Below, piece after piece: positions 47,045-48,844 of a DNA stretch of 64,000 bases (position 1 is its first letter; each line of letters opens with the position of its first letter). Under the pieces are notes generated by a model that searched no databases, was not told the DNA's origin, and worked only from the letters and a program-made list of their open reading frames with translations. Both the position numbers and the translations under genes were made by a program. Source of the DNA: a virus; IMG/VR virus record IMGVR_UViG_3300030101_003608, positions 46,526 to 110,525 of that record, one strand, 5' to 3'.

Positions 47045-48844
47045 ATGGCAAATTTTGCTGAACTTCGTTTATTTGGTCAAGCACTGAGAAAGACCAATGC
47101 TTCTGACACAGTTAACTCTGTACTTGTTAGAACTTGTGCATCTAAAGGATATGTTATGCGTATTGGATGTGATCCTGAAAGAGTAATGTCTTATATGCAG
47201 TCGTTACCAAACAATTATAATTCTACTTTCTATAAATCATTTAATGATGTTATTAATAGAAGTGAAGAAGCATGGTGGGTAGACCAGTGTATGCATTATG
47301 CATCTACATATGGTACAGGTCATACAGATACACCTTATGTTCCTAATAATAATCCTAGTCTAATTAACTTTTCTGAATGTAAGGTTATTGATCCTATTAC
47401 AATGGAAGAGCTTCATGATAAAATCCAAAATATGGCAGATTCAGGTATTGCTCTTAAGAATGATACTCTGAATGATATCTTCGAGTTAATTGAAGAGTTT
47501 GATATGTCATTTTGGACTGATAATATTAAGAACCGTGAGTTCTTGATTAGATATCATATTGCAAAAGGTATACCTTTTAAGAATGTAATTGAATCATTAC
47601 AAGCTATTAACTTTATCATTACTGGTAGCACTTGTATTGTTAAAAGTCATGATGCAATGAATGCGTATAGTTGTTCTAGTTCTTGGGATAGGTTTTCTAA
47701 TATCAAGGCATGTTTTTATTCACATTCTTTAGAAGAATGGGCAAGTATCTTCAATAGATATAAGCCCTTGTTTCTTGCTTTGAGAAATAGTGAGTTGAGA
47801 CCTATGATTAACAAGATATCTAAGTTATCTAAGAAACATCACGTTCCTACTGTTATGCCTATGAGTACAAAGTTCTTGACTCCTGAATATGTTAACAATG
47901 ATAAGTTAACTTTTCAGTCAAGACTTTGGTTACGTAAGTATGAGGATAGATCTTTATTTGAACTTGTAAAGTATTACAATGCTATACAAAAAAGAAGAAC
48001 AGGAAAGTTTATTGATACAATTAATATCAGAAATGGTAAAAGTTGGGTTAAAAAGAGTTCTTGGGAGCTTAATGAAGATAACTTGGATAAACTTAACAGT
48101 CAGGTTAGACGTTCAATATCTCATAAGATGAGAGAGAAATTACAAGGTAAAACTTTAAATCTCCCTTCTGGCTTAGGCATTACTCTTCCTACATCAGAAA
48201 AGAATTTCATTGGTACATTACCTATTGGTTCTTATATTGATGTTATGCCTCAAGATAATCTCATTGTTGGGATTTATTGGAAAGGTGAGGATGGTGCAAG
48301 CGATCTTGACTTGTCATTTACTGATATAGATGGTAAAACTATCTCTTGGTGTAATTCATACACTGATGCGGGTAATAACATTGTCTATTCAGGTGATATG
48401 ACATCTGCTGATCCTGAAGCTTCAGAGTATTTATTGTTCCGTAATGATATGCCTAATGGTATATTTATGTGTAACAATTATTCTGGTGCATCAGAAGCAA
48501 AGTATACATTTATTGTTGCTAGACTTCCTGAAGGTGAGAGTTTTAATACAAATCATATGGTACATCCAGATGATATTATATTTCAAACTCCTATGGTTAT
48601 GAGAAGTAATCAAATGTCTATGGCTATCCATATTGGTAGTAGATTTATCTTTACTGATAGAGCTATTGGCAATGGTAGAGTTGCTAGAGCAGGTGTTACT
48701 ACTCGTGACCTAATTCAGAGTCAAATTGAGATGGCAGATATGTCATTGACATTGAATGAATTTATAGATCATACTGAACTTGATGGTGAAGTAGTAGATC
48801 TAACTACTGATGACAAGTCAGCTTTAATTAGCTTATTGTCATAA
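47045..48844 (+). CDS. TerD-like C-terminal domain protein behind the structured RNA (599 aa)
   Basis: 599 residues. The N-terminal ~330 are mostly helical with repeated Trp/Tyr/Phe (e.g. WASIFNRYKPLFLALRNSEL), followed by a basic linker (INIRNGKSWVKKSSW, then SHKMREKLQGKTL). Residues about 395-505 look like a TerD/stress-type beta-sandwich: GIYWKG, ASDLDLSFTDIDGK (D420, D422), NIVYSGDMTSADPEASEY (SGD at 449-451). The domain order recalls Ro60-like RNA-chaperone layouts (helical ring plus C-terminal sandwich), but no vWA MIDAS motif is seen. It has its own terminator, and lies 25 bases after the RNA candidate. Partnership with that RNA is an inference. Confidence 0.75.
   Translation: MANFAELRLFGQALRKTNASDTVNSVLVRTCASKGYVMRIGCDPERVMSYMQSLPNNYNSTFYKSFNDVINRSEEAWWVDQCMHYASTYGTGHTDTPYVPNNNPSLINFSECKVIDPITMEELHDKIQNMADSGIALKNDTLNDIFELIEEFDMSFWTDNIKNREFLIRYHIAKGIPFKNVIESLQAINFIITGSTCIVKSHDAMNAYSCSSSWDRFSNIKACFYSHSLEEWASIFNRYKPLFLALRNSELRPMINKISKLSKKHHVPTVMPMSTKFLTPEYVNNDKLTFQSRLWLRKYEDRSLFELVKYYNAIQKRRTGKFIDTINIRNGKSWVKKSSWELNEDNLDKLNSQVRRSISHKMREKLQGKTLNLPSGLGITLPTSEKNFIGTLPIGSYIDVMPQDNLIVGIYWKGEDGASDLDLSFTDIDGKTISWCNSYTDAGNNIVYSGDMTSADPEASEYLLFRNDMPNGIFMCNNYSGASEAKYTFIVARLPEGESFNTNHMVHPDDIIFQTPMVMRSNQMSMAIHIGSRFIFTDRAIGNGRVARAGVTTRDLIQSQIEMADMSLTLNEFIDHTELDGEVVDLTTDDKSALISLLS

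Follow-up and report, generated by a model that had tools for sequence, protein, structure and literature searches.

The 64,000-nt stretch of viral DNA analysed here (the window) encodes a 599-aa protein directly behind a structured noncoding RNA, and we find that relatives of this protein are accompanied by relatives of this RNA both in unrelated phages and in Bacteroidota chromosomes. Judged from the sequences, RNA and protein have almost certainly been paired in evolution, and a ribonucleoprotein (RNP) is the likely meaning of this pairing. We lean towards the view that the locus encodes an RNP acting in tRNA damage control. Since in relatives the gene adjoins RNAs that carry pieces of tRNA, the pair probably constitutes an RNA-protein machine for tRNA sensing, protection or repair, with a role in tRNA protection or repair being the best-supported guess, and splicing and mere self-regulation its competing readings.

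The protein is encoded by an intact open reading frame on the plus strand (47045-48844). Its AlphaFold2 model (mean pLDDT 81.7, pTM 0.80; input with 27 homologues) is helical up to approximately residue 366 and forms a beta-sandwich thereafter, in good agreement with the large helical N-terminal part predicted by an earlier, sequence-only reading of this DNA. The helical N-terminal domain spans residues 1-366 (~47045-48142, plus strand), and the sandwich spans residues 399-555 (~48239-48709, plus strand). The latter aligns to TerD (3ibz; Z 11.5, rmsd 3.0, 139 residues aligned) and to a further TerD match, 2qz7 (Z 10.6), and residues D420, D422, S449, G450 and D451 of the SDLDLS and SGD motifs are largely invariant across the protein family, which confirms the proposed TerD-like C-terminal sandwich with conserved acidic residues. 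A Foldseek search with the full model returned mostly antibody folds matching the sandwich part, and for this reason the N-terminal part was modelled separately (pLDDT 80.0). Pfam, PHROGs, PADLOC and phmmer against PDB sequences provided no family name for the protein, and the Pfam TerD sequence profile matched neither it nor the 27 family members. Note that the gene copy of Chryseobacterium indologenes AA5 (L214:4001-5755) has an in-frame stop close to its start. In virus records G055 (48907-51712) and G085 (11947-14483) the gene match is split into two pieces ~900 and ~600 bases apart, respectively, which suggests an intron or insertion, and in G067 two pieces of the match lie at opposite contig ends, which fits a circular record.

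Upstream of the gene, folding and conservation delimit a noncoding structured RNA region at 46385-47020 (plus strand). The segment 46340-47025 has a folding energy of -178.4 kcal/mol, as compared to -149.3 +/- 4.2 kcal/mol for 20 shuffles (z -6.9, better than all 20), and the 3' part of the RNA, from ~46655 onwards, is conserved in homologue loci L003, L005 and L013. A structured RNA thus does stand ahead of the gene, as had been claimed; it is not, however, one large RNA found only in phages, since the unit is a small repeated hairpin, hereafter the handle, which also occurs in Bacteroidota chromosomes. The window holds two handles on the plus strand. Handle 1 (46653-46711; match to the covariance model R1, described below, at 46656-46708, 52.5 bits) is built of a 7-bp stem S1, an AUA/C internal loop, a 6-bp stem S2 and the UUCCU...UUA element. 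Handle 2 (46944-47014; R1 match at 46955-47003, 44.5 bits) is terminator-like because its outer stem is lengthened to 15 bp and is followed by a U-run; it is the last hairpin of the RNA and ends at 47014, 30 bases ahead of the ATG. Read from the alignment with L013, the stems of both copies differ in sequence while the pairing is kept. A possible degenerate handle at 46788-46869 (plus strand; CAGU/ACUG with UUCCU) scores 4.5 bits, which is not significant, and its pairing is present in L013 too. No recognisable tRNA module was found in either window handle. The claim that terminators bracket the protein gene holds in part: one terminator-like hairpin, following the preceding gene (46095-46121, plus strand), was recovered by the terminator scan, whereas the hairpin at 46944-47014 and that after the gene (48852-48879, plus strand, with four T) were recognised by eye and fall outside the scan rules. 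Rfam yielded no match at gathering score in the window, with chance-level matches alone in the RNA region; known large phage RNAs such as GOLLD, ROOL and OLE likewise have no match at that score. In L013 the long RNA starts with a Hatchet self-cleaving ribozyme (L013:4153-4290, 86.7 bits) ~700 nt upstream of the homologous gene; Hatchet had no match in the window.

Homologues of the gene were detected by tblastn in six phage records, namely S-CRM01 (two), S-CBWM1 (two), Phass-1 and one uncultured phage, and a profile scan of IMG/VR provided 44 homologue loci; no DNA similarity of the window to phage records was found. ARAGORN predicts tRNA or tmRNA genes in 23 of the 44 stretches (a list that takes in Phass-1 and L004), and in both S-CRM01 and S-CBWM1 the gene is located inside a tRNA array. 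A scan of bacterial genomes added 80 loci, kept out of 105, chiefly from Chryseobacterium and other Flavobacteriia. tmRNA genes lie directly or closely downstream of the gene at L018:6615-6867 (permuted), L022:6576-6832, L023:4444-4720 and L008:9461-9899, the last of these in Phass-1, where six handle hairpins precede the tmRNA. A 216-kb viral contig carries an ARAGORN tRNA with anticodon CTA, labelled tRNA-Pyl (L050:1288-1362), and a match on a streptomycete plasmid falls where no gene is annotated. The MXAN_6230/SCO0854 RING family (NF041916) is a sister family: 7 of the 27 family members match its profile weakly (best E 3.4e-9), the window protein does not match it, and five distant homologues scanned score 221-448 bits, under the 600-bit curated cut-off. 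Among the distant homologues L046-L051, an own repeat array was found in L051 alone, an NF041916-like locus in which another repeat, GGCTATTG..CCCTTCCT, occurs five times on the gene strand (at 3384, 3489, 3579, 5917 and 6545), three times closely upstream of the gene and twice downstream; this repeat may represent a further RNA family comparable to the handle. In open-licence PMC papers, preprints aside, we found neither the RNA nor the protein family described.

Overlong tRNA matches just upstream of the gene share a motif with the window RNA and L013. A strict scan for this hairpin gave 53 matches on the plus strand and four on the minus strand, with 4.25 expected from dinucleotide shuffles (the shuffle figure leaves the window aside), and a second scan beside the gene gave 87 plus-strand versus seven minus-strand matches. 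Fifty-one handle copies align as S1 - AWA - S2 - U UCCU ... UU A - S2' - C - S1', and a covariance model, R1, was built. In these copies, which were chosen for complementarity, 9 of 10 pairs show changes in both partners, and pairing is kept in 99.6% of cells; given this preselection, we rely on strand bias, shuffles and co-occurrence rather than on covariation. The handle adjoins gene homologues in unrelated phages, among them the cyanophages S-CRM01 and S-CBWM1 and the gut phage Phass-1, as well as in Bacteroidota chromosomes. A phage record has between one and nine copies of it, and a bacterial locus mostly two to four.

Starting from the protein, 30 of the 35 homologue-bearing virus records have R1 matches, as do all 29 in which the homologue is close, although most of the 35 records contributed to R1; five of the six distant homologues lack a handle and the sixth has a weak match only, while in L045 the handles lie ~57 kb away from the gene. 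The outcome that would have spoken against the pairing, a protein common in phages that have no such RNA, was hence not seen. Starting from the RNA, two RNA-only IUPAC patterns retrieved 46 and 31 stretches from IMG/VR, and 46 of the 55 further virus records found via an RNA pattern encode the protein (43/50 and 3/5). The nine that do not (G037, G038, G042, G047, G061, G073, G077, G084 and G088; 6-65 kb) are possibly fragments, being no longer than 65 kb. In the 80 bacterial loci all 227 R1 matches are on the gene strand, handles are located upstream of the gene in 78, and in 75 of these 78 the last handle ends 9-23 nt ahead of the start codon. Across seven whole bacterial genomes, with 150 first-look candidates scored per genome, 19 of 19 R1 matches are at the gene locus. 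Finally, six of 296 Bacteroidota genomes encode the protein, and 18 strong handle matches (E<=1.4e-8; 19 candidates scored per genome) are confined to the same six, always beside the gene; the chance of this overlap is ~1e-12, or 6e-11 without the centre genome, which was chosen and is one of the six. Six other Bacteroidota genomes, lacking the protein, have one weak RNA match each (E 1.6e-4 to 7e-3). Co-occurrence seen from both sides thus strongly supports the suggested two-component locus of RNA and protein, which may be partners in an RNP.

What the handles carry resembles parts of tRNA. Of the 126 hairpins whose apical loop is 7 nt long, 53 combine U33 with a purine at position 37, compared with 18.9 +/- 4.1 in shuffled loops. 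In a set of 193 non-redundant apical parts (out of 394), the T-arm consensus is present in 23 (shuffled mean 0.1), a D-arm in 19 (shuffled mean 0.2) and an anticodon-like 7-nt loop (a Y32-U33-R37 stem-loop) in 39 (shuffled mean 4.7, maximum 11), though ~13 of these 39, about a third, are T-loops. By eye, we recognise permuted tRNAs in the handles of L006 (5621-5738), L024 (4676-4797), L028 (7435-7560), L038/L039 (4037-4183), L075, L078 and L089, and whole tRNAs with a tetraloop-capped anticodon stem in those of L059, L072, L110 and probably L060. In L060, L067, L072, L080 and L038/L039 a D-arm and an anticodon arm occur without acceptor or T-arm, and Chryseobacterium loci carry a Lys-UUU anticodon arm (TTCA-CTTTTAA-TGAA). 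In the predicted minimum-energy folds, the tRNA arms are plainly visible in L059, L028 and L024, but not in L110 and L006. A reading of L024:4747-4870 as one tRNA with an insert was dropped in favour of two permuted tRNAs. Conversely, tRNA genes of ~100-120 nt that hold a handle inside the anticodon loop lie beside the gene in L018, L021, L023, L032, L171, L177, L181, L218 and L238.

In bacteria the locus is linked to the gene for the RNA ligase RtcB. The gene preceding the handles in C. indologenes (L214) encodes RtcB (Pfam E 6e-35), and by tblastn RtcB is encoded on the gene strand in 66 of the 80 bacterial loci, downstream in five of the 66 (L171, L175, L186, L227 and L236). Across the ~50 Chryseobacterium loci this linkage is inherited synteny and hence non-independent; four Tenacibaculum loci have a different RtcB, ~30% identical. 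RtcB is encoded in 8 of 45 phage records and is absent from the window record.

Taken together, these observations are consistent with the following scheme. The helical half of the protein would bind the handle, the apical module of which would display a tRNA mimic, and the resulting RNP may either lure or competitively inhibit enzymes that cleave the anticodon loop of tRNAs, or act as a platform or gate through which broken tRNAs reach RtcB; that it acts in tRNA damage control is suggested by the RtcB linkage and by a published operon, rsr-yrlBA-rtcBA. Since the phage gene is often found in tRNA arrays, phages would likely use the system for protection against host anticodon nucleases. Given the position of the last handle near the start codon in most bacterial loci, it probably controls the gene in cis as well. 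The window copy would be a derived form, with two handles within a longer RNA and no recognisable tRNA module. A fuller version strikes us as evenly balanced between right and wrong: by means of a common handle, one Ro-like/TerD protein would present exchangeable mimics of tRNA, be they anticodon arms, T-arms, tRNAs without an anticodon or circularly permuted ones, and would act on tRNA-cutting enzymes as a trap or repair platform of modular design. This system would be encoded with RtcB in Bacteroidota, have been acquired and enlarged by phages, cyanophages among them, and constitute an undescribed class of RNP.

The tRNA genes with a handle in the anticodon loop, together with the RtcB linkage, could alternatively mean that the handle serves in splicing or processing, as a small anticodon-loop intron or a device bringing permuted tRNA ends together, with the protein aiding the cutting and RtcB ligating the products into mature or circular RNAs. 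As read by eye, joining the permuted tRNAs of L024 and L028 after position 36 would indeed restore an anticodon loop with GUA. We consider this alternative unlikely, since no splicing is required for the tetraloop-capped whole tRNAs (L059, L060, L072 and L110) or for the isolated anticodon stem-loops, U33 is missing from several interrupted loops, and most copies lack exon-like sequence. Even less probable is that the hairpins are a cis-acting leader and nothing else, an operator or attenuator through which the protein regulates itself. While the distance of 9-23 nt to the start codon in 75 of 78 bacterial loci would suit such a leader, as would a T-run of at least four after the last hairpin in 65 of 78 bacterial loci and the U-run after the last hairpin of the window, T-runs also follow 106 of 146 other hairpins, the copies are multiple and in phage records sometimes downstream or tens of kb off, and neither the tRNA modules nor the handles inside tRNA genes are expected from a leader.

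The remaining alternative, which we regard as doubtful but better than the former two, is a genuine Ro60 (TROVE) protein that has diverged strongly, comes with its Y RNAs and has had its vWA domain replaced by TerD. Among the matches listed for the helical half (976 chains aligned), two alone align over more than 200 residues, and both are Ro proteins: Deinococcus radiodurans Ro (Rsr, 2nvo; third rank, Z 6.4, rmsd 4.7, 210 residues) and human Ro60 (9nf8; Z 5.3, rmsd 7.4, 235 residues). The other 48 matches listed cover under 80 residues each, except one of 130 at rmsd 13.5. Both Ro matches are weak, their Z below 8 falling under the reliable level of the aligner and being possible for any helical repeat. 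As regards the HEAT-like helical ring of Ro60 proteins, these two alignments thus stand beside a negative Foldseek search. The RtcB linkage likewise resembles rsr-yrlBA-rtcBA. Against common descent, Foldseek with the helical half alone gave no significant match and nothing with E below 0.4, the TROVE profile (PF05731) matched none of 28 virus records, TROVE is not among the Pfam matches of the 27 family members, and hhalign against eight TROVE proteins gave a probability of 0.2%, in line with the earlier remark that no Ro60 signature is seen in the sequence. The Y RNA families of Rfam have no match in the window or the homologue loci, the C-terminus of the window protein is TerD-like and not a vWA domain, and three of the six protein-bearing Bacteroidota genomes carry a separate TROVE gene as well.

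Ro60 RNPs span bacteria to humans, and their role in bacteria is still debated. If our preferred reading of an RNP acting on damaged tRNA is true, it provides a second, sequence-unrelated system on the same plan (helical protein, tRNA-mimicking RNAs and RtcB), which would help to reveal the purpose of such RNPs. The variable modules point directly to candidate targets, e.g. through the Lys-UUU and Asn-GUU anticodon arms, so that anticodon nucleases offer a way of testing the idea; the locus occurs in the easily grown Chryseobacterium and Flavobacterium. It further provides an RNA family without an Rfam match and phage tRNA genes apparently circularly permuted around a conserved hairpin.

With TerD of the tellurium resistance family (3ibz), residues 399-555 of the window protein have the fold and the conserved acidic residues in common, but here the sandwich is fused to a helical domain and escapes the Pfam TerD profile. 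Phage RNA decoys and anti-nuclease tRNAs represent the general idea of an RNA that copies a host RNA target; the likeness lies in that copying, and the difference in the many tRNA parts presented here on one protein-associated handle. The closest parallel is the bacterial Ro60 (Rsr)/Y RNA YrlA operon with RtcB, rsr-yrlBA-rtcBA (PMC7790460). Both systems combine a protein with a noncoding RNA, a putative protein-binding stem, a tRNA-like module and a link to RtcB, and the helical half of the window protein family has a weak fold resemblance to Rsr. The module beside the putative binding stem is present in many relatives and not in the window copies, and rtcB adjoins the locus in bacteria and not in the window record. 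The analogy to Ro60 RNPs put forward by the sequence-only reading has thus gained from the tRNA-like modules of relatives, the bacterial RtcB linkage and the weak Ro fold match. The two systems differ in that the window family has no TROVE sequence signal, TerD in place of vWA and no Rfam match, and in that many small hairpins with several kinds of tRNA module stand here against one or two Y RNAs. As sequence profiles fail to connect the families, the best reading is that the locus would encode an RNP functioning like the Ro60/Y-RNA/RtcB tRNA-repair systems without belonging to them by sequence.
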